A stretch of 10,632 bases of DNA from NCBI GenBank assembly GCA_001304015.1, contig LJUY01000073.1, positions 1 through 10,632 of the forward strand, given 5' to 3'. This DNA is from a candidate division Zixibacteria bacterium SM23_81 (GTDB taxonomy: Bacteria; SM23-81). Shown here one piece after another: positions 2,215 to 10,632 of the stretch. Under the pieces are notes generated by a model. That model ran no database searches and was not told the DNA's origin. It saw only the letters and a program-made list of their open reading frames with translations. Within the stretch, counting starts at the first letter, position 1. Each line of letters opens with the position of its first letter. The position numbers and the translations under genes were made by a program.

Positions 2215-2275
2215 AAACAGCCTCTAGCTTGGAATATAGAATCCTCGATAGTTACACGTTCAAACGAGGCTGTTT
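2215..2275. repeat. 10-bp inverted repeat spanning the end of the dehydrogenase gene
   Basis: AAACAGCCTC at 2215-2224 is the exact reverse complement of GAGGCTGTTT at 2266-2275, with 41 bases between. The right arm covers the last sense codons of the Ldh_2-family gene and the left arm lies in the convergent intergenic region. A transcript of the minus strand could fold into a stem here with a large loop, followed by only a few U. It might help end the operon transcript, but the loop is too long for a normal intrinsic terminator. No better terminator is seen for the operon in 2109-2259. Confidence 0.35.
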
Positions 2276-3354
2276 TCCTTGATCTCCAGGCTATGGTCCC
2301 GTAAACTCTTGAAAAACCTGGCTAGCTCTGACTCACGAACCGGAATCCCTGTTCTTGTCCGTTTTGCCTCTTCCATGGCCTCCAACTCTCCAGGAAAGTA
2401 AACCCGTTCAAAGCCCTCCATAGGTGGACACGTGATACAATCCTCTATGAGTCTGTCCACCTTCTCCTTGAAAACATCAATTCCTGCAAAACAACCCGGG
2501 TCCAGGGCAAGCATAAAGAATGAGGCTCCGTAAGGTGTTGTCAGATCGTCCAGAGGAGGGACCTCTTTCCCGCAAAAGGAGCCCGTGAGAGCTCCGGTTA
2601 GGATATCCACGATCAAGCCCAGTCCATACCCCTTGTGACCTGCCATGGGAAGGAGAAACCCTTGCAGGGCCTTCTCTGGGTCGCTTGTTGGGTTTCCGTC
2701 TCGGTCGAGGGCCCACCCTTCAGGGATCCTTTCGCCCTTTTTCAGAGCCTTGTTGATTTTCCCGGCCGAGGAGGCACTCGTAGCAATATCGACCACGAGG
2801 GGTGGGTACTTCTTTGCCGGAATGGCGAAACTCATGGGATTTGTCCCATGAACGCCCTCACGTCCCCCGTAGGGTACAACTCTCGGCGTGGCATTGCCAA
2901 AAGTTAATCCTATCAGATCCTGCTTGACGGCCTGAAATCCATAGAATGAAGCAGCACCGAAATGGTAACAGTTGTAGGCGGACACCGCCCCTATCCCGCT
3001 TTCACGACATAGTCTTATGGCCTCTTTCATGCTTTGAGAAGCGGCAACAGGGCCCGGCCCGCTGCACCCATCGATCAACAGGGTGGAAGTCTTTGCTTTG
3101 ACGATCCGAACATCGGCCTTGGGATCGATCATGCCTGCCCGGATTTCTCTCACCAATCTGGGAAGGAGTGCGAAAAAACCATGGCTGTCAATTCCCCTGA
3201 GGCTCCCGAAAAGAAAGGCCTCAATGCATATCTCCCCTTTTTCCGAAGGGACCTCCAGTTGACTCAACACATCCATCCCGAATGCTGTGGCCTTCCCTGG
3301 TTCAATGGTTATTTCAGCCGCCCCGCTCTCCCTATCCATAGTAGCCCCGTTCAT
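2260..3354 (-). CDS. Ldh_2 family NAD(P)-dependent 2-hydroxyacid dehydrogenase
   Basis: The product is a cytoplasmic oxidoreductase of the malate/L-lactate dehydrogenase (Ldh_2) family. Known members interconvert 2-hydroxyacids or related substrates with 2-oxoacids using NAD(P), for example malate, sulfolactate, ureidoglycolate and 2,3-diketogulonate enzymes. Family motifs occur in order: RGIDSHG (53-59), the YHFG segment with His131, GTNPMSFAIP (170-179), DIATSASSAGKI (189-200), GWALDRDGNPTSDP (213-226) and GHKGYGL (239-245). The length of 364 residues is normal. The ATG at 3354 is chosen because AGGAGG lies six bases upstream (3361-3366); a second ATG five codons in is too far from it. It is the last gene of the operon, 17 bases after the dehydratase gene. 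Its likely job is to supply the 2-oxoacid used by the ferredoxin-dependent oxidoreductase encoded upstream. The substrate cannot be read from the sequence. Confidence 0.9.
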   Translation of the reverse strand: MNGATMDRESGAAEITIEPGKATAFGMDVLSQLEVPSEKGEICIEAFLFGSLRGIDSHGFFALLPRLVREIRAGMIDPKADVRIVKAKTSTLLIDGCSGPGPVAASQSMKEAIRLCRESGIGAVSAYNCYHFGAASFYGFQAVKQDLIGLTFGNATPRVVPYGGREGVHGTNPMSFAIPAKKYPPLVVDIATSASSAGKINKALKKGERIPEGWALDRDGNPTSDPEKALQGFLLPMAGHKGYGLGLIVDILTGALTGSFCGKEVPPLDDLTTPYGASFFMLALDPGCFAGIDVFKEKVDRLIEDCITCPPMEGFERVYFPGELEAMEEAKRTRTGIPVRESELARFFKSLRDHSLEIKENSLV

Positions 3355-3371
3355 CTCAATCCTCCTGCTCC

Positions 3372-4823
3372 TTACAAACTCCCCGAGCCTTCCTTGATAC
3401 CTGCCAGATTCTTGGCCAGCTTCTTCTTTGACTCGATATCCGCATTCCGCAGAACGGTCATCCTGTGTGTTTCTGGTGAGCCGGCGCCATGGATGTTGGA
3501 GACGATATCCCGGCTCTCAAACGCCAGCTTCTCGATGAACCTGAACAGGCGCATCCTATCTTCTGTAGGCACGTTGTCTGCGCCCTTGAGATATTTTTTG
3601 AGCAAGGGACCAATGTCGGGATTCTCCATGTCTTTCTCTGAAGGCATATCAGCCACCATGCCACCGGCAATCTCAATCATCAGCCGGATTGCCTCATGCA
3701 GCTCCTTGCCCTCATAGAGCTTCGATGTATTGGAAAGAACCGGATCAACCATGTAGATGCCCGACTCTGTAGGTTCAGCCTCCACTGAGGCGGCTATAGA
3801 GCAGCCATAGATTGCCTCAACGGTCTTCAGCATCTCCGCCAACTTGGAGTTGATATGTGACACCCCAGTCAGACCGTTGTATTCAGCAGCTGCCGCTGCT
3901 GCACCCACGAGAACGTCGCCAACGCCGCACTTGCAGCCGCCGTGTGAATGACGGTGGTAGTTACCAAAGTTCCTCACCATGGGCCCAGCAAACTCATATT
4001 CCCCACACAGAAACACCCGCTCCCACGGCACAAAAACGTCGTTAAAGATGACCATGGGCGCAAACTTGCTGTATTCAACATTACCGAGGTCACAATCCTC
4101 GAGGGCTCTGGCCTCCAGGGTGCCCCTGCCGTAGACGTGAATCACGCCCTCGGCATCTACCGGGACGGCAAAACAGACGGCATAGTCTTTGTCTGGCTCG
4201 CGCATCTCCCTGGTGGGAACAATCAGCCCCCAGTGAGCGCACAGAGACCCTGTCTGGTGTATCTTGGCACCTCTGACCACAATACCGCCGCTGTCCTTAT
4301 CCACCACGTGCAAGTACATGTCCGGATCTTTCTGCTCAGATGGGCGGAGCGACCTGTCACCCTTGACATCCGTCACACCGCTAAAGACCACAAAGTCGTT
4401 CTTCTGGATGAGCTTAACGAAATTCAGGAGCCTCTCCCAGTAATTGGTGCCGTACTTCTTGTCACAGTTGTATACCTCTACCCCCACGGAGTTTATGGCA
4501 TCCATACCGGTACACCGCATAACGCAGGTGCCAATTCTCTGGGTGAGGAATTTTAGCATTCTGACCTTGGCCAGGAGGTCATCCGGGCTCTCAAAGAACT
4601 TGACGAAGCGGCTCACCTCTTCTCCAATCAGCTTGGATTCAGCCACCAGATACCTTTTGCCCTCCGGTTCATGAGACAGCCCATAGGTCTTGGCTACCCC
4701 AGCCAGCATGTGCTTGATCAAAGGGTGTTCGTGGGGATTTTGTACCTTTTCTCCCAGAATATAGGTGGTTGGATGTAGGACCTTCAGTGAGTCGTAATAC
4801 TGTTCGGAAGTCTTGACAGCCAT
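3372..4823 (-). CDS. 4-hydroxybutyryl-CoA dehydratase-like Fe-S flavoprotein (HpaB/AbfD superfamily)
   Basis: This 483-residue protein matches AbfD (4-hydroxybutyryl-CoA dehydratase / vinylacetyl-CoA delta-isomerase, about 490 residues), an oxygen-sensitive FAD enzyme with a [4Fe-4S] cluster that dehydrates an unactivated beta position by a radical route. The Clostridium aminobutyricum ligands Cys99, Cys103, His292 and Cys299 correspond to Cys100, Cys104 (CVMRC), His290 and Cys297 (HRHSHGGCKCG) here. Catalytic Lys300 corresponds to Lys298. The HQTGS motif (189-193) and the VFVPWERVF segment (263-271) are also family features. The odd point is His294, where AbfD has the active-site Tyr296. There is also an extra Cys299 beside the cluster. 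The cluster ligands argue against a 4-hydroxyphenylacetate monooxygenase, and no flavin reductase gene is nearby. The start has AGGAG upstream (AAAGGAGAGAACG then ATG). It sits 48 bases after the gamma-subunit gene. The substrate may differ from 4-hydroxybutyryl-CoA, so no symbol is given. Confidence 0.85.
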   Translation of the reverse strand: MAVKTSEQYYDSLKVLHPTTYILGEKVQNPHEHPLIKHMLAGVAKTYGLSHEPEGKRYLVAESKLIGEEVSRFVKFFESPDDLLAKVRMLKFLTQRIGTCVMRCTGMDAINSVGVEVYNCDKKYGTNYWERLLNFVKLIQKNDFVVFSGVTDVKGDRSLRPSEQKDPDMYLHVVDKDSGGIVVRGAKIHQTGSLCAHWGLIVPTREMREPDKDYAVCFAVPVDAEGVIHVYGRGTLEARALEDCDLGNVEYSKFAPMVIFNDVFVPWERVFLCGEYEFAGPMVRNFGNYHRHSHGGCKCGVGDVLVGAAAAAAEYNGLTGVSHINSKLAEMLKTVEAIYGCSIAASVEAEPTESGIYMVDPVLSNTSKLYEGKELHEAIRLMIEIAGGMVADMPSEKDMENPDIGPLLKKYLKGADNVPTEDRMRLFRFIEKLAFESRDIVSNIHGAGSPETHRMTVLRNADIESKKKLAKNLAGIKEGSGSL

Positions 4824-4871
4824 CGTTCTCTCCTTTCCTCAAGAGATATATCTTCTTTTCTCTCACCAACA

Positions 4872-5417
4872 TTAGTCCATGGGTTCCCGCACAGCCTCAA
4901 ACCCCAGATTAAATGCATCCAGGTTTAGCTGCTCTTGCTCCTTGGACACGGCGTCTACAATGGCCTTCTCCAGGGCCTCACGGCTTACAACCCGCCTCAC
5001 CCTGCACAGGGCCCCCAGCATGATGATATTTGCCGTGACAGGGGCCTTGAGTCGATTACGGGCAATTGATGTGGCCGGTATCCTGAAAATATGACCAATG
5101 TTGTCTGGTGGCGTGGGGACCATATCGCTGTCTACAATCAGAATGCCATCCGGTTTCAGGGTATGACTGAAACGATTGATAGAGTCCTGGGCCTGAGCCA
5201 TGAGGATGTCCGGACGTGTGACCCGCGGAAAAACCACTGGCTCATCGGAGACAACCACCCAGGTAGCAGCATACCCCCCGCGAAGCTCAGATGAATATGC
5301 CTGCGTCTGCACAGCATACTTCCCATCATAGGTAACCGCCGCAGAGCCCAAGACTGTACCGGCCAGAATGGATCCCTGACCCCCGACGCCCGCTATGGTC
5401 AACTCAGTCCGGGTCAT
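4872..5417 (-). CDS. korC: 2-oxoacid:ferredoxin oxidoreductase gamma subunit (KorC type)
   Basis: The 181-residue product is the gamma subunit of a four-subunit 2-oxoacid:acceptor oxidoreductase of the 2-oxoglutarate (Kor/Oor) type, which turns a 2-oxoacid plus CoA into acyl-CoA, CO2 and reduced ferredoxin. It shows the N-terminal GVGGQG motif (10-15) followed by LAGTVLGSAA and the conserved QTQAYSSELRGG segment (37-48). The length is typical. The start ATG lies three bases after the beta-subunit stop, and its ribosome site (GGAGG) is inside the last codons of the beta gene, so the two are translationally coupled. The gene order delta-alpha-beta-gamma matches korDABC. The substrate is not settled by sequence: 2-oxoglutarate is the default for the family, but the neighbours leave room for another 2-oxoacid. 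Confidence 0.9.
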   Translation of the reverse strand: MTRTELTIAGVGGQGSILAGTVLGSAAVTYDGKYAVQTQAYSSELRGGYAATWVVVSDEPVVFPRVTRPDILMAQAQDSINRFSHTLKPDGILIVDSDMVPTPPDNIGHIFRIPATSIARNRLKAPVTANIIMLGALCRVRRVVSREALEKAIVDAVSKEQEQLNLDAFNLGFEAVREPMD

Positions 5418-5420
5418 GAC

Positions 5421-6248
5421 CTACACCTCCATCACTTCTTGCTTGAGACGGGCCCATTCCGAAGCCAGCTCTGCTTTTTCTATGTCCACAAACTCCCCTA
5501 CGACGATCTTGCCCTTCAAGGCCTCTTCGTCAAGGTTCCTGGCCTTATCAATCCTGATGCTGTTTTCCTTAAAATGTTTGAGCATGTCTACCGCCTTGCC
5601 GAGCTTGGCAGCCCTTCCAAACTGCACAGGGCATTGACTGATGGCCTCCACCAGCGCAAAACCCTTTTTTACGATGGCCTTCTTGATGGAACGCGTCATC
5701 TGACGGGGATGATAGGTAGTCCATCGTGTCACATATGAGGCCCCGGCCGCAGCAACCATGGCGCAGATATCAAAGGTATGCTCGAGCGTTCCATGGGGGC
5801 TGGTAATGGTGGTCAACCCCCGGGGAGTTGTGGGAGCGGTCTGCCCGCCGGTCATCCCATAAATGCCATTATTCACAAGGACAACTGTCATATCGATGTT
5901 GCGCCGGGCCGCGTGAATAAGATGGTTGCCACCTATTGCCGCCAGGTCACCGTCGCCACTGGCCACAAGGATGTTTTTCTCAGGCAGACACAACTTTATG
6001 CCGGTGGCAAAGGCAATAGGTCTCCCATGAGTTGTGTGCAGGGTGTCCGCTGCAAAGAGAGGACTTGGAATCCAGGCCGAACAGCCAATCCCCGAGACAA
6101 AGATAAAATCATCCATATCCAGACCCAGCTCGTCAATAGCCCTCAGGATGGCCTGGGTGATGATTCCATTTCCACAGCCCGGGCAGGTGGTCGTCCGGGT
6201 CACGTGGTTCCGCATGTATCTTCTGAAAGGGTGAGCCGAGACACTCAT
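5421..6248 (-). CDS. korB: 2-oxoacid:ferredoxin oxidoreductase beta subunit, thiamine diphosphate-binding (KorB type)
   Basis: This 275-residue subunit carries the thiamine diphosphate site. The motif series is complete: CPGCG (22-26), GIGC (53-56), THGR (73-76), GDGD (98-101) and NNGIYGMTGGQ (126-136) followed by a PTTPRG segment. The GDGD to NNGIYG span is the Mg/thiamine diphosphate fold, and the YGMTGGQ-PTTP form is characteristic of the 2-oxoglutarate (KorB/OorB) branch rather than pyruvate oxidoreductases. Cys22, Cys25 and Cys56 are likely Fe-S ligands of this subunit. The start overlaps the alpha-subunit stop by four bases (ATGA at 6248-6245), and a purine-rich AGGGAG lies upstream. 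Together with the alpha subunit it forms the catalytic core. Confidence 0.93.
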   Translation of the reverse strand: MSVSAHPFRRYMRNHVTRTTTCPGCGNGIITQAILRAIDELGLDMDDFIFVSGIGCSAWIPSPLFAADTLHTTHGRPIAFATGIKLCLPEKNILVASGDGDLAAIGGNHLIHAARRNIDMTVVLVNNGIYGMTGGQTAPTTPRGLTTITSPHGTLEHTFDICAMVAAAGASYVTRWTTYHPRQMTRSIKKAIVKKGFALVEAISQCPVQFGRAAKLGKAVDMLKHFKENSIRIDKARNLDEEALKGKIVVGEFVDIEKAELASEWARLKQEVMEV

Positions 6249-7402
6249 TTAATCATCTCCCTGATGCGAGCCAGGATATATTCTGGATCATGGATCTGTC
6301 CCAGGGTTTCAGGTCCTAATAATTCAATCCGACAGGCATGGGCGGCTTCAGCCTTGATGTAAGGATAGAGCTGGCCTCTATTGTTTTCCAGAACAACAAT
6401 GAAATCCACACTCTCTGCCACCTGTCGTATCTCCCTGTCTGGAAACGGCCAGCACGTGATCAGGCGCACATTCCCGGTTCTGAGTCCCTGTGCCTGGGCA
6501 AGGTGTGCAGCAGCCCTGGCTGATCGACCGACTGTTCCATAGCTCACCAACACAATACTGGCCCCGGAATAGTCAGCCTCTACCTGGATGATGTCGTCCC
6601 GATGGTTGAGAATCTTATCGATGGGTCTCGATATATATCGATGCATGACCTCGGGATCACTCAAGTTGCGCATACCGTGCTCGTCATGGCAGGAGCTGGT
6701 AACATGAGCCTTGAAACCCCGTCCAAAGACCGGCATAGGTGCTACATCCACACTCAGGAAGTCCTGGCGGTCCATGGGATCATTTCCGCCCTTGGGGATC
6801 TTACGGCTTTCAATCTCCAACTGCTTCTCCTCAGGTATGATGACCTGCTCGCGCATGTGTCCCACAAACGCATCTGCCAGGAGGAATACAGGCACCCGAT
6901 ACTTCTCAGCCAGATGAAAGGCCCGAACTGTCAGATCGAACATCTCTTGGGGGCTTTCAGGACAGAGTGCAACAATCTGGTAATCGCCGTGGGACCCGCG
7001 GGCCACCTGAACCATATCTCCTGCCAGCCCGACTGAGGGGGCCCCTGTGGATGGACCCAGGCGCTGCACGTCCACAATCACCAGTGGCGTCTCTGTGGCA
7101 ACGGCAAAGCCTATGTTCTCTTGCATCAGGCTGATGCCCGGGCCTGAGGTAGCTGTCAGCGCCTTTTGTCCCGCCCAGGAAGCACCAATGGCAGAGCATA
7201 TAGCAGCTATCTCGTCTTCTGTCTGGAGGAAGATACCCCCTACCTCGGGGAGTCTCTTGGCAAGGCGGTTGACGACTTCGCTTGCAGGGGTAATGGGATA
7301 TCCGGAGACGAATTCACACCCAGCTGCGATCGCGCCCTCGGCGCAGGCCAGATTGCCCATCATGAAATGGGTACCTGTCATGATCTTTTTCCCCCTACCC
7401 AT
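6245..7402 (-). CDS. korA: 2-oxoacid:ferredoxin oxidoreductase alpha subunit (KorA type)
   Basis: The 385-residue product is the alpha subunit, which in this family shapes the active site with the beta subunit. It has the substrate-contacting GYPITP motif (34-39), LQTEDEIAA (59-67) and the TATSGPGISLM segment (83-93). The C-terminal part is a transketolase-like domain II with VSYGTVGRSARAA and ENNRGQL. Length and motifs fit the separate-subunit 2-oxoglutarate type. The open frame runs upstream to 7453, but the ATG at 7400-7402 is preferred: AGGAG lies six bases before it (7409-7413), and conserved family sequence begins just after it. The longer form would add 17 basic residues inside the ferredoxin gene. 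The ferredoxin stop TAG falls only three bases past this ATG, so translation is coupled. Confidence 0.92.
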   Translation of the reverse strand: MGRGKKIMTGTHFMMGNLACAEGAIAAGCEFVSGYPITPASEVVNRLAKRLPEVGGIFLQTEDEIAAICSAIGASWAGQKALTATSGPGISLMQENIGFAVATETPLVIVDVQRLGPSTGAPSVGLAGDMVQVARGSHGDYQIVALCPESPQEMFDLTVRAFHLAEKYRVPVFLLADAFVGHMREQVIIPEEKQLEIESRKIPKGGNDPMDRQDFLSVDVAPMPVFGRGFKAHVTSSCHDEHGMRNLSDPEVMHRYISRPIDKILNHRDDIIQVEADYSGASIVLVSYGTVGRSARAAAHLAQAQGLRTGNVRLITCWPFPDREIRQVAESVDFIVVLENNRGQLYPYIKAEAAHACRIELLGPETLGQIHDPEYILARIREMIK

Positions 7403-7649
7403 CTTCCTCTCCTCTTTCAGCCGCAGGCTTCGAAGCGTCTTTTTCCACCACAATGCTAAAGTCAGGGCAGGATATCATGCAGTTCTGACAACCTGTACAG
7501 AGGCTCTCATCCTTCACCTGGGGAGGTAAATACCCAACCTCGTTCATCTCGTCTGATCCGATGAGTACCTGCTTTGGGCATACAAAGATACAAATGCCGC
7601 AGTCTTCCACACCTTTGCATGCCTGGCGGAATATGGTTATCTTAGACAT
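7395..7649 (-). CDS. korD: 2-oxoacid:ferredoxin oxidoreductase delta subunit (2x[4Fe-4S] ferredoxin, KorD type)
   Basis: This 84-residue dicluster ferredoxin carries electrons from the thiamine site to the external acceptor. The second cluster motif is canonical, CTGCQNCMISCP (C-x2-C-x2-C-x3-C-P). The first is altered: CKGVEDCGICIFVCP has five residues, not two, between the first and second Cys. The usual KorD form is close to CKGCGLC. The start is the ATG at 7647-7649, with AAGGA six bases upstream (7656-7660); a TTG two codons earlier lies too close to that site. The C-terminal tail is charged and overlaps the alpha-subunit start by eight bases. It is the first of the four oxidoreductase genes and follows the ATPase gene by 24 bases. 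Confidence 0.9.
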   Translation of the reverse strand: MSKITIFRQACKGVEDCGICIFVCPKQVLIGSDEMNEVGYLPPQVKDESLCTGCQNCMISCPDFSIVVEKDASKPAAERGEEDG

Positions 7650-7673
7650 GATCAATCCTTGGAGGCTTCCCCT

Positions 7674-8780
7674 TCAATCCCCTATTCTTCGGTGGGGAGA
7701 GTTGGCTTCAAAGACATGCATCTTTTCCATGTTGAAGATGAGCTTGATCTCCTGGCCCAGCTCCGTCTCAACCCGTGGGTCCACCCGTGCTACAAAACTG
7801 CTCTCACCACATCTGATATCCAAAAGGATCTCGGGGCCAAGAGGCTCGATCACCTCCACTATCCCATTAACTGGGGCTTCTTCACCAAGCTCTTTCATGA
7901 AATCAGAGCTGTGGATGTCCTCGGGACGAATCCCGAAAATCACCTCTCTCCCCGAAAGATTCTGGTACTGATGATGCATTTCCCGGGGGACAGGCACTCT
8001 GAAGGATTCAGTTTCAATAAGGATTTCAGAATTGGCGGAAACGATACGAGCCGGGAAGAAGTTCATTGAAGGGCTTCCAATAAAACCGGCAACAAACATA
8101 TTCAGCGGGCGCTTGTAAATCTCCATGGGCCGCCCTACCTGTTGAATCTCTCCGTCTTTCATGATGACGATCTTTGTCCCCATGGTCATGGCTTCAACCT
8201 GATCATGGGTGACATAGACAATCGTACTCTTCAGGCTATGGTGAAGCTTGCTGAGTTCAGCCCGCATTTGAACCCGAAGTTTAGCATCAAGGTTGCTGAG
8301 AGGCTCATCAAAGAGAAATGCGGCTGGCTTTCGAACAATCGTTCTTCCCAGAGCAACTCTCTGCCTCTGCCCCCCTGAGAGTTCCCGTGGTTTCCGATCC
8401 AGAAGTTCGGTGATGCCCAGGATTCCGGCAGCTTCCTTTACCCTCCGATCGATCTCATCCTTGGGAAAACCTCTCATCTTCAGACCAAAGGCCAGGTTCT
8501 TGTAAACGGTCATATGGGGGTACAGGGCGTACTCCTGAAAAACCATGGCAATATCTCTGTCTTTCGGAGCAAGGCCACTAACACTGCGGTCCCCTATGTA
8601 GATCTTCCCTGAGCTGGGCTCTTCCAGACCCGCGATCATTCGCAATGTAGTTGACTTTCCGCACCCAGACGGACCGACCAGAACCAGGAGTTCTCCGTCT
8701 TCAACCTCCAGGCTTACATTCCTGACCGCTTCGATTTTTGCGAATTTCTTGCTCAAGTTTTCCAGTATAATTCTAGCCAC
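7674..8780 (-). CDS. ABC transporter ATP-binding protein, MalK/UgpC family
   Basis: This is a cytoplasmic ATPase that powers import by a carbohydrate-type ABC transporter. Numbered from the GTG at 8780 (368 residues) it shows Walker A GPSGCGKST (36-44), the Q-loop VFQEYALYPHM (80-90), signature LSGGQRQRVALGR, Walker B FLFDE, the D-loop SNLDAKLR and the H-loop His in YVTHDQ. A C-terminal TOBE/MalK-like domain of about 130 residues includes IGSPSMNFFPARI and FGIRPEDIH. The start is uncertain. GTG at 8807 overlaps the upstream stop as GTGA. GTG at 8780 has AGGGG seven bases upstream and gives the usual family N terminus (ARIILENLSKKF), so it is preferred. No permease or binding-protein gene accompanies it here. 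Relatives act on sugars, polyols and glycerol phosphate. Confidence 0.9.
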   Translation of the reverse strand: MARIILENLSKKFAKIEAVRNVSLEVEDGELLVLVGPSGCGKSTTLRMIAGLEEPSSGKIYIGDRSVSGLAPKDRDIAMVFQEYALYPHMTVYKNLAFGLKMRGFPKDEIDRRVKEAAGILGITELLDRKPRELSGGQRQRVALGRTIVRKPAAFLFDEPLSNLDAKLRVQMRAELSKLHHSLKSTIVYVTHDQVEAMTMGTKIVIMKDGEIQQVGRPMEIYKRPLNMFVAGFIGSPSMNFFPARIVSANSEILIETESFRVPVPREMHHQYQNLSGREVIFGIRPEDIHSSDFMKELGEEAPVNGIVEVIEPLGPEILLDIRCGESSFVARVDPRVETELGQEIKLIFNMEKMHVFEANSPHRRIGD

Positions 8781-8803
8781 CTTCAGACCCCTGTAAGTAT
8801 CCC

Positions 8804-9550
8804 TCACTTAAGGCTAAACCCTCCATCTACCAAAAGAACCTGACCGGTGATGAAGTCGGCATCATTCGAGGCCAAAAAAAGAATTGCCTTTGCTATGTCT
8901 TCTGGTTCCGCCATTCGCTTGAGGTACGACCCCTCTATCATGTTTCGTTTAATTTCTTCGGGCAGTGATTTGGTCATCTCGGTAGCTGTGTGTCCTGGCG
9001 CAACCGTATTCACATTGATATAGGGGGCCAGCTCTTTGGCCATCGTCTTGGTCAGGTTGATCACCGCTGCCTTGGAAGCACTGTAGTCCATGATTCCTTC
9101 CCGGCCACAGTGATCGATCCCCCGGATTGAGGAGATGTTAATAATCTTGCCTGATCTCTGCTCCACCATGTATCTCGCTGCGGATTGGGAGCACAGGAAT
9201 ACACCGATCAGATTGACATCCAGGGTCTTCACCCAATCCTCCACACTCTTTTCCAGAAAAGGCCTGGATATGGCGATCCCTGCATTGTTCACCAAGACAT
9301 CGATTCGCCCGAACCCCTGGATGAATTCCTCCATTATCCTTTCAATCTGGTCCTTCTTCGAAACATCCCCACCAAAGGTCTTGAACTCAAAACCCTTTTG
9401 TTTGGCCTGGGCTGCAACCTCTTTGAGGCCCTCATCTCGGATATCGACAATTCCAACTCTGGCCCCTTCCTCTGCGAACAAAAAGGCTGTCGCCGCGCCA
9501 ATGCCTCTGCCCCCACCAGTGATGAGGGCTGCCTTATCCTCGAGTCTCAT
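8804..9550 (-). CDS. short-chain dehydrogenase/reductase (FabG-like SDR)
   Basis: This 248-residue classical SDR is an NAD(P)-dependent alcohol/ketone oxidoreductase. It has the cofactor motif TGGGRGIG (11-18), NNAG (88-91), structural Asn113, catalytic Ser in NISSIRG (around 140-141), and Tyr156 and Lys160 in YSASK, ending with the usual VDGGFS. Asp36 at the end of the second strand (IVDIRD) favours NAD(H) over NADP(H). The ATG at 9548-9550 is chosen because AGGAGGT (9558-9564) sits seven bases before it; the GTG at 9568 lies just upstream of, and in effect within, that site. It is the second gene of the operon, 36 bases after the regulator, and its stop overlaps the longer ATPase start. FabG-like sequence alone does not fix the substrate. 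In this context a sugar, polyol or hydroxyacid dehydrogenase role is more likely than fatty acid synthesis. Confidence 0.9.
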   Translation of the reverse strand: MRLEDKAALITGGGRGIGAATAFLFAEEGARVGIVDIRDEGLKEVAAQAKQKGFEFKTFGGDVSKKDQIERIMEEFIQGFGRIDVLVNNAGIAISRPFLEKSVEDWVKTLDVNLIGVFLCSQSAARYMVEQRSGKIINISSIRGIDHCGREGIMDYSASKAAVINLTKTMAKELAPYINVNTVAPGHTATEMTKSLPEEIKRNMIEGSYLKRMAEPEDIAKAILFLASNDADFITGQVLLVDGGFSLK

Positions 9551-9586
9551 GCCTTCTACCTCCTCCACAAAGTCCCAATCTCTGCC

Positions 9587-10324
9587 TTACGTTTGCATCT
9601 TTTCCATGTCTTCTTTGATCTTTTTTTCAATGAAGTCCAGGTGGCCTACGATCCTCCGCTTGGCCAACAAAGGATCTCGCTGGCTGATCGCTTCGAAGAT
9701 TTCATTGTGGTGCTGTAAGATGAGGCCTTTTTTGTCAGGTTTTGTGATGACCTGTCGAAATCTAAAAAAGGCATTAAAGGTATCTTTGAGTGCATCCATA
9801 ATATGCATGGCAATAACATTGTGGGTAGCTGCTGCGATAGAGAGGTGGAACTCAACATCCACCTTTTCCCACTCCTCATCCGCCAGACCGATGCTCTCCA
9901 TCTTTGCCAGTATTTCCCCCATCTTTTTCAGATCCTCGGCAGTAGCCTCTGTGGATGCCTTTTCAGCACACCATCCCTCGATCAGCTTTCGGACCTCCAG
10001 AAATTCAAATATCCTCTCTGCCTCCTCTTCCAGCAAAACCGTCAGGGGAGACTTCAAGCATTCCAGGACAGATGACAGAACGAAACTCCCCTCTCCCTGG
10101 CGGACTTCGATCAACCCCATGGTCTCTGCTCGATAGAGGGCCTCCCTGATTGACTGCCTGCTGATACCGAGATCAGATGCCATTTCCCTCTCGGGTGGGA
10201 GCTTCTGGCCAGGTTTAAGCTGGCCGCTGCTGATCATAGAGACAATCTGTTTATATACTTCGTCGGGTATCTTGCTCGTTTTGATGGGAGAGAATATCCC
10301 CTTTTTGCCTTCGTTCTTCTTCAA
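9587..10324 (-). CDS. GntR-family transcriptional regulator, FadR/FCD subfamily
   Basis: The protein is a ligand-responsive DNA-binding regulator of 245 residues. The N-terminal winged helix (about 15-83) contains KLPPEREMASDLGISRQS, then REALYRAETMGLIEVRQGEGSFV. The C-terminal FCD domain carries the expected metal and ligand residues: Asp156 and His160 in DVEFH, His206 in QHHNEIF, and His228 in GHLDF. Family ligands are usually organic acids or sugar acids. No ATG fits. The TTG at 10322-10324 has GGAGGG six bases upstream (10331-10336) and gives a normal family length. The open frame continues 86 more codons to 10582, but those translate the GC-rich hairpins and lack family similarity. As first gene of the operon it probably controls the genes behind it and itself. 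Confidence 0.88.
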   Translation of the reverse strand: MKKNEGKKGIFSPIKTSKIPDEVYKQIVSMISSGQLKPGQKLPPEREMASDLGISRQSIREALYRAETMGLIEVRQGEGSFVLSSVLECLKSPLTVLLEEEAERIFEFLEVRKLIEGWCAEKASTEATAEDLKKMGEILAKMESIGLADEEWEKVDVEFHLSIAAATHNVIAMHIMDALKDTFNAFFRFRQVITKPDKKGLILQHHNEIFEAISQRDPLLAKRRIVGHLDFIEKKIKEDMEKMQT

Positions 10325-10330
10325 AATGTT

Positions 10331-10336
10331 CCCTCC
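10331..10336 (-). promoter_or_regulatory. ribosome binding site deciding the TTG start of the regulator
   Basis: On the minus strand GGAGGG is followed by six bases and then TTG (10324-10322). It is the best-spaced Shine-Dalgarno sequence near the conserved winged-helix start and supports the 245-residue protein over the 331-residue open frame. Confidence 0.6.
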
Positions 10337-10364
10337 AGCAGACCCTTCTCTATCTAGCAAAGCC

Positions 10365-10400
10365 TTGCCTTCCCGGCCCGTGCCGGCCAGGGACGGGCAA
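10365..10400. repeat. REP-like GC-rich hairpin, copy 1
   Basis: TCCCGGCC (10371-10378) pairs with GGCCAGGGA (10385-10393) around a 6-nt loop with one bulged A. The outer bases TTGCC (10365-10369) and GGCAA (10396-10400) extend the stem. It shares the octamer GGGACGGG (10390-10397) and the overall layout with the second hairpin about 110 bases away. It lies in the untranslated leader of the regulator gene. Confidence 0.6.
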
Positions 10401-10491
10401 ACCGACGAGGCAGAAGGCCTTAAGAAAATCCGAAATACTGAGTCACGGTCGTGGGTTACGGTTACGATGCCCGTTTCGTCTTTCGGCCCGC

Positions 10492-10526
10492 CCTCCCCGT
10501 CCCGAGACCGGGACGGGATCGGGAGG
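10492..10526. repeat. REP-like GC-rich hairpin, copy 2
   Basis: CCCGTCCCG (10496-10504) and CGGGACGGG (10509-10517) are perfect 9-bp arms around a 4-nt loop. Flanking CCTCCC (10492-10497) and GGGAGG (10521-10526) add further symmetry. On the minus strand both copies read roughly CCCGTCCC, then GG, then CGGG, then GGGC/AGGC in the same direction, so they look like one repeat family in tandem orientation. Confidence 0.6.
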
Positions 10527-10533
10527 CACGACA

Positions 10534-10544
10534 TTGTTGGACCA
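10534..10544. promoter_or_regulatory. candidate FadR-type operator TNGTNNNACNA
   Basis: TTGTTGGACCA at 10534-10544 fits the FadR-subfamily operator consensus TNGTNNNACNA at all six fixed positions. It sits inside ACATT (10531-10535) and AATGT (10546-10550), which add partial symmetry about a slightly different centre. It lies upstream of the first operon gene, where an autoregulatory site is expected. Six fixed bases occur by chance about once per 4 kb, so the site is plausible, not proven. Confidence 0.45.
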
Positions 10545-10632
10545 TAATGTGGTCGTCGTAGTATTTCAAAAGCAAGGTCCATATATGTATGCTTTGCAGG
10601 CCAGGTCTGGGCCAGGGTAACGTCATTCGTCT

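Follow-up and report, generated by a model that had tools for sequence, protein, structure and literature searches.

An operon joining a 2-oxoacid:ferredoxin oxidoreductase to an AbfD-like protein with altered catalytic residues points to an undescribed acyl-CoA pathway

We analyzed a 10,632-bp stretch of DNA (the window; contig LJUY01000073.1, deposited under candidate division Zixibacteria bacterium SM23_81) that is an entire contig, its readable genes ending at the contig edges. Its minus strand carries nine close-packed genes (10582 to 2260), including those for a four-subunit 2-oxoacid:ferredoxin oxidoreductase (KorDABC, or Kor), an Ldh_2-family 2-hydroxyacid dehydrogenase, and a protein related to AbfD, the 4-hydroxybutyryl-coenzyme A (CoA) dehydratase, that belongs to a subfamily with altered catalytic residues. 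Gene content, conservation, the exchange of partner modules, and the residue changes, all of them sequence-based results, point to an undescribed, conserved pathway whose AbfD-like member forms a new subfamily of an already known family of enzymes. In our favored explanation, to which we give about even weight, the operon would be catabolic and belong to an acyl-CoA pathway that has yet to be described, with an AbfD-like core fed either by Kor or by the ligase SucCD. No description of the pairing of Kor or SucCD with an altered AbfD was found in the literature, which is weak evidence because most subscription journals lay outside the search.

A scan of genome contigs gave 36 relatives of the AbfD-like protein, and two further whole-genome searches covered the Dehalococcoidia-type class of genome G064 and the large phylum of genome G060. 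Matches at E < 1e-150 were present in 7 of 393 and 33 of 395 of these genomes, respectively, the weakest being canonical AbfD. Neighbors were then counted with direct tblastn searches of 42 subfamily loci, which come from Desulfobacterota-type and Chloroflexota genomes, and of 11 canonical AbfD loci. Complete KorDABC lies beside the AbfD-like gene at 15 of the 42 loci and SucC plus SucD at 21; none has both, and 6 have neither, although the sequence ends soon on the expected partner side at two of these (L101 and L110). The canonical loci lack Kor, SucCD, and Ldh_2 partners altogether (0/11), and the resulting difference in the presence of Kor or SucCD (Fisher p = 1.6e-7) is indicative only, as related loci are not independent. 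The nearest relative (L002; 88%) has KorDABC, AbfD, and Ldh_2 in identical order, with KorD partly masked by a scaffold gap, and at L118, SucC, SucD, and AbfD lie within a single operon.

An earlier interpretation of this DNA (the sequence-only reading) had chained three chemistries in one operon (Ldh_2, KorDABC, and the AbfD-like enzyme), and both the families and the coordinates hold. It had also staked the pathway on conservation of the neighborhood, which is indeed found in relatives (the Kor-AbfD pair at 15 loci and Ldh_2 at 8). Its remark that the window encodes no CoA ligase proved right as well; in relatives, a SucCD-like ligase occurs only at loci that lack Kor, which fits Kor as the acyl-CoA supplier. 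The Desulfobacterota setting that it proposed stands insofar as genomes of the G060 phylum share the operon; it is unconfirmed for the window itself, whose genome belongs to a different, sparsely sampled phylum.

On an AbfD tree of 54 rows, the altered subfamily forms a 42-row clade (99/95) apart from an 11-row clade containing the solved structures 1u8v and 6vjr. It divides into two deep subclades, one of 14 rows (with the window protein) and the other of 28 rows (~50% identical). Kor- and SucCD-linked members are interleaved on this tree, and both modules occur in each deep subclade, which indicates that the partners replaced each other more than once; the Kor label must have changed at least three times along well supported branches. 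A single clade (99/96) holds the linked KorB proteins, and within it those of the window and L002 cluster with those of L092 and L100. Unlike their KorB, the AbfD-like proteins of window/L002 and L092/L100 fall in different subclades. The system is best read as a mobile catabolic module built around a constant AbfD-like step, with an exchangeable supply of acyl-CoA.

The AbfD-like protein (3372 to 4823, minus strand; 483 amino acids [aa]; AbfD/HpaB-fold flavo-[4Fe-4S] protein; Pfam HpaB_N, 278 bits; HpaB, 217 bits) matches 1u8v and 6vjr over its full length (458 and 431 bits) and is much more distant from HpaB oxygenases than from AbfD. Its predicted fold is set by its 43 to 46% identity to these solved structures. 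In a residue comparison of 41 altered and 19 canonical sequences (AbfD numbering), only 14 columns separated the two groups by the criteria used. The [4Fe-4S] ligands Cys99, Cys103, His292, and Cys299 are invariant in the subfamily, and Lys300 and the flavin-site motif (FAD-site TDxKGDR) are also kept. Tyr296 is replaced by His and Glu455 by Ser in 41/41 altered sequences, and Glu257 is replaced by Cys, Ala, or Ser in 40/41 (Ala in the window protein; one unread); all three residues are kept in 19/19 canonical rows. Further changes in the altered subfamily are Met149 to Val, Gly255 to Lys, and Thr394 to Asp. According to Zhang et al. 2015, the flavin radical is proposed to arise through a relay of Tyr296, Glu455, and Glu257, and a change at any of them reportedly abolishes or nearly abolishes AbfD activity. 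A summary of that work is given in PMC13101534.

With these three residues lost, the altered subfamily would be unable to use the radical relay proposed for AbfD. This bears directly on the route suggested in the sequence-only reading, namely, 2,5-dihydroxypentanoate (a guess as the starting substrate) to 5-hydroxy-2-oxopentanoate, 4-hydroxybutyryl-CoA, and crotonyl-CoA, with the AbfD-like protein as a true 4-hydroxybutyryl-CoA dehydratase. The homology to AbfD with retained cluster ligands agrees with this route, as does a KorB pocket (described below) without a residue suited to a distal carboxylate. The window's genome has the altered AbfD-like copy only, with no canonical AbfD elsewhere, and it encodes an enoyl-CoA hydratase (crotonase) and a 3-hydroxyacyl-CoA dehydrogenase, through which crotonyl-CoA, or an enoyl-CoA product in general, could be used. 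However, the loss of the three residues extends over the aligned subfamily, and altered and canonical AbfD coexist in five genomes (G062, G066, G067, G070, and G496); together, these findings disfavor 4-hydroxybutyryl-CoA as the substrate. Moreover, 2,5-dihydroxypentanoate is not known as a common metabolite. We thus regard the route as unlikely. The same evidence goes against the earlier assignment of a dehydratase of the 4-hydroxyacyl-CoA type in mechanism, and the altered subfamily is disfavored as an ordinary 4-hydroxybutyryl-CoA dehydratase.

The Kor subunits, all on the minus strand, are KorD (7395 to 7655; 86 aa; a 2x[4Fe-4S] ferredoxin-type delta subunit with Fer4 matches and weak OorD/KorD matches), KorA (alpha; 6245 to 7402, with an ATG at 7402 and an open reading frame [ORF] open to 7453; ~385 aa; Pfam POR_N, 210 bits), KorB (beta, thiamine pyrophosphate [TPP] binding; 5421 to 6248; 275 aa; Pfam TPP_enzyme_C, 112 bits), and KorC (gamma; 4872 to 5417; 181 aa; Pfam POR, 125 bits). 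They have the features expected of a four-subunit Kor/Oor enzyme, i.e., alpha, beta, gamma, and ferredoxin-like delta subunits, the TPP site, the YPITP motif, and the Arg; in KorA, this motif is accompanied by the equivalents of Arg344 and Thr349. All linked KorB proteins (15/15) have a Trp-type pocket, in which Trp stands at the position of StOFOR1 Lys49b, a site occupied by Lys or Arg in 2-oxoglutarate enzymes, and is followed by a one-residue insertion. The K49I variant of StOFOR1 lost activity with 2-oxoglutarate and kept that with pyruvate (PMC5020499), which, with the Trp at this site, suggests that 2-oxoglutarate is probably not the substrate of the linked Kor. Specificity for 2-oxoglutarate, the alternative named in the sequence-only reading, is disfavored on the same ground, and the side chain of the Kor substrate is likely to be small or uncharged. 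A sister KorB clade (KorB paralogues L134 and L137 to L140; loci L158 to L162) is also Trp-pocketed and lacks the AbfD-like partner; it adjoins a GltD/NfnB-like oxidoreductase, in some cases with LamB/YcsF and 5-oxoprolinase-type carboxyltransferase genes. The neighborhoods of this sister clade were examined for substrate hints, and none were found.

In the relatives that use SucCD, all 21 linked SucC proteins carry SGAGLGM, FLETGG, and YGGINPIH versus NGAGLAM, FLDVGG, and FGGIVRCD in E. coli, and SucC scores below the cutoff of the succinate-CoA ligase beta model (330 of 370 bits). A route from 2-hydroxyglutarate through 2-oxoglutarate to succinyl-CoA, with the ligase as a plain succinate-CoA ligase, would account for the closeness of Kor to 2-oxoglutarate enzymes and of SucCD to succinate enzymes. 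It is nevertheless highly improbable in view of the Trp that replaces Lys/Arg in 15/15 KorB proteins, the behavior of StOFOR1 K49I (PMC5020499), the changed acid-site loops of SucC, and the subthreshold SucC score. A wider dicarboxylate reading (4-hydroxyglutaryl-CoA or succinyl-CoA), considered on account of SucCD, the OGOR-like Kor, and a dicarboxylate-type CoA transferase, was set aside, being weakened by the KorB Trp and the SucC loops. The acyl group of the substrate is probably small, and probably neither succinyl nor one derived from 2-oxoglutarate.

The Ldh_2 protein (2260 to 3354, minus strand; NAD(P)-dependent; 364 aa) scored 363 bits against a gathering score of 38.8 for Pfam PF02615. 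Its closest solved structure is L-sulfolactate dehydrogenase (2x06); against the corresponding model, NF040650, it scored 267 bits (cutoff, 500), and it lies below every NCBIfam equivalog cutoff. The L-sulfolactate dehydrogenase model was the best one for all Ldh_2 proteins tested, yet they scored well below its cutoff. These scores, along with the PGDH-like dehydrogenases, lend something to a sulfonate route, i.e., sulfolactate to sulfopyruvate and sulfoacetyl-CoA (by Kor) or sulfoacetate to sulfoacetyl-CoA (by the ligase), with reductive splitting by the AbfD-like enzyme to acetyl-CoA and sulfite. In addition, Lys255 and His296 are new to the active site and two acids are missing from it, changes that would suit an anionic group. 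On the other hand, no Lys or Arg is left at the known KorB site, and a search for DsrA found none in the window's genome and none in the seven AbfD-like-positive Dehalococcoidia (0/7 in the class sample versus 11/386 of the remaining genomes). The sulfonate reading is not supported, given where DsrA is absent, and we consider it very unlikely.

Another candidate is a glycolyl-CoA route, a concrete case of our favored explanation, in which glycerate would be converted to hydroxypyruvate and then to glycolyl-CoA (by Kor), or glycolate to glycolyl-CoA (by the ligase), and the AbfD-like enzyme would reduce or rearrange glycolyl-CoA. Common acid pairs one carbon apart fit two exchangeable modules, the bulky Trp of KorB suggests a small 2-oxo acid, and Ldh_2 and PGDH/hydroxypyruvate-reductase-like dehydrogenases are present at the loci; a PGDH-like D-2-hydroxyacid dehydrogenase occurs at the Kor-type loci L100, L111, and L113, in place of or alongside Ldh_2. 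Removal of the hydroxyl of glycolyl-CoA, however, requires two electrons, and no enzyme is known to us that performs it. We regard this route, too, as unlikely.

Our favored explanation, a catabolic acyl-CoA pathway with an AbfD-like core, would run as follows. A sugar- or polyol-like compound may be imported by a CUT1-type importer and converted with the help of a short-chain dehydrogenase/reductase (SDR) to a 2-hydroxy acid, which Ldh_2, judging from its family, would oxidize to a 2-oxo acid. KorDABC, again at the family level, would decarboxylate the latter oxidatively to an acyl-CoA, CO2, and reduced ferredoxin, and in relatives, the free acid would be activated to this acyl-CoA by the SucCD-like ADP-forming ligase. 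The constant pairing suggests that the AbfD-like flavo-[4Fe-4S] enzyme then carries out an elimination or isomerization of the acyl-CoA, the product of which would enter central metabolism; its radical might be started in another way (e.g., by ferredoxin reduced by Kor), or the reaction might involve no radical. The direction of flux, the order of the steps, and the acyl-CoA common to both modules are what we infer.

Several points weigh against this explanation. Loci L004, L009, L010, and L011 have neither Kor nor SucCD. A homologue of Ldh_2 adjoins the AbfD-like gene at only 8 of the 42 loci (7 of them also with Kor or SucCD), and copies at other loci are as low as 29 to 38% identical to the window Ldh_2; Ldh_2 is thus not a fixed part of the module, and it could serve a side reaction. 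Kor, for its part, could run reductively. That Kor and SucCD deliver the same kind of acyl-CoA is the simplest reading of their exchange, and the mechanistic role of Tyr296, Glu455, and Glu257 is the one reportedly found by Zhang et al. 2015. Alternatively, the AbfD-like protein may be a mere double-bond isomerase or a slow remnant, with the flux of the operon ending at the acyl-CoA made by Kor. Three residues needed by the dehydratase are lost and the isomerase framework is kept, as this alternative would have it, but conservation across two phyla, His296 and Ser455 in 41/41 sequences, and the constant pairing argue for a selected activity, and we find it rather unlikely. A more specific form of the favored explanation, which we put forward tentatively and well short of even confidence, is a new class of AbfD-fold enzyme, a flavo-[4Fe-4S] acyl-CoA lyase or dehydratase that would dispense with the Tyr296/Glu455/Glu257 relay and might draw electrons from Kor-reduced ferredoxin. 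It would form the core of an undescribed anaerobic pathway in sediment Desulfobacterota and Dehalococcoidia, fed by 2-oxo or free acids.

The operon is ordered from its 5' end as GntR/FCD, SDR, MalK-type ATPase, KorD, KorA, KorB, KorC, AbfD/HpaB-fold protein, and Ldh_2, and the gene calls and coordinates of the sequence-only reading were correct. Because the intergenic gaps are 3 to 48 bp or small overlaps, the nine genes are read as a single transcription unit, and the Pfam scores of their products far exceed the cutoffs. The three upstream genes, also on the minus strand, encode a MalK/UgpC-type ATP-binding cassette importer ATPase (CUT1; 7674 to 8807; 377 aa; NCBIfam NF008653, 478 bits against a cutoff of 432; OB_MalK and TOBE_2), an SDR-family oxidoreductase (8804 to 9568; 254 aa; Pfam adh_short_C2, 222 bits), and a GntR/FCD-family regulator (9587 to 10582 as the longest ORF; Pfam GntR and FCD), the true start of which is probably internal, as the conserved part begins at about residue 95. 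Copies of the SDR (83% identical) and the regulator (68%) occur at L096, and an SDR copy 93% identical over 88 aa occurs at L097. At L096 (14519 to 17145), genes for the binding protein and both permeases of a CUT1-type importer (SBP-MalF-MalG) lie directly upstream of GntR-SDR-KorDAB-AbfD, and the window MalK probably belongs to a similar importer lying beyond the contig edge. A plus-strand gene (3 to 2108), open toward the start of the contig, encodes a HEAT-repeat protein of 701 aa that has no close relatives in the genomes searched; lying on the strand opposite to the operon and without a conserved partner, it was rejected as part of the system.

Contamination was rejected as an origin of the contig because its composition is typical of the genome (G+C content, 0.528 versus 0.534; tetranucleotide rank, 11 of 32). 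The operon proteins encoded at 2260 to 7655 are 77 to 88% identical to their counterparts in G060, a genome of another, much larger phylum, which points to recent horizontal transfer. G060 also holds a 46-residue AbfD-like fragment (C1, 1946073 to 1946210; 83% identical) that adjoins none of the partners examined and is likely a remnant of a second AbfD-like copy. Among the other loci, L010 and L011 hold the members that diverge most within the subclade of the window; two genes for acyl-CoA dehydrogenases and one for a LarA-like racemase lie there in place of Kor or SucCD. A subfamily member at L009 (8062 to 16820) lies with a class III CoA transferase, an mmdA-type carboxyltransferase, and TAXI/TRAP transport genes, and this CoA-transferase context is possibly a third way of acyl-CoA supply. 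At L097 (296 to 2920), the Kor-AbfD-Ldh_2 operon is followed by genes for a URO-D-family protein, a B12-binding corrinoid protein, and a DHDPS-family aldolase. A fixed role was rejected for OYE-like reductases, AFOR, LarA, DHDPS and HpcH aldolases, and TRAP/TTT/MFS transporters, each of which occurs at few loci.

AbfD-type genes serve as metagenome markers of 4-hydroxybutyrate carbon fixation cycles; K14534 (AbfD) was used in this way in a study that includes Dehalococcoidia and Desulfobacterota (PMC10645885). If the function of the subfamily differs, marker counts may be wrong in these groups. Kor, the SucCD ligase, and the AbfD-like enzyme are three independent, easily assayed handles on one acyl-CoA, which make this orphan anaerobic pathway directly testable, and the subfamily provides a natural set of variants at residues thought to start the radical of AbfD.

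Compared with AbfD (1u8v and the Nitrosopumilus-type 6vjr), the altered subfamily shares full-length homology, C99/C103/H292/C299/K300, and TDxKGDR, and it differs by Y296H, E455S, E257C/A/S, M149V, G255K, and T394D, by its separate, well supported clade, and by its gene neighbors. The linked Kor has the four subunits, TPP and [4Fe-4S] motifs, YPITP, and the Arg for the 2-oxo carboxylate in common with KorDABC/OorDABC (8ys5, 6n2n, and StOFOR), whereas the pocket Trp and one-residue insertion that replace Lys/Arg in KorB, and its own clade, set it apart. The SucCD of relatives, which is absent from the window, resembles succinate-CoA ligase in domain makeup and in ~40% alpha-subunit identity; its beta-subunit loops, by contrast, depart from NGAGLAM and GGI(V/T)R at all 21 loci, and its beta score falls below the cutoff. 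The window Ldh_2 matches the Pfam family of L-sulfolactate, malate, and ureidoglycolate dehydrogenases over its full length but stays under all of their NCBIfam equivalog cutoffs. BbuA, the gamma-butyrobetainyl-CoA trimethylamine lyase, is likewise a flavin enzyme with a proposed C4 elimination from an acyl-CoA; however, it has an acyl-CoA dehydrogenase fold and is ~10% identical to AbfD (PMC8364193), and it was rejected as a homologue of the AbfD-like gene because of this different fold.

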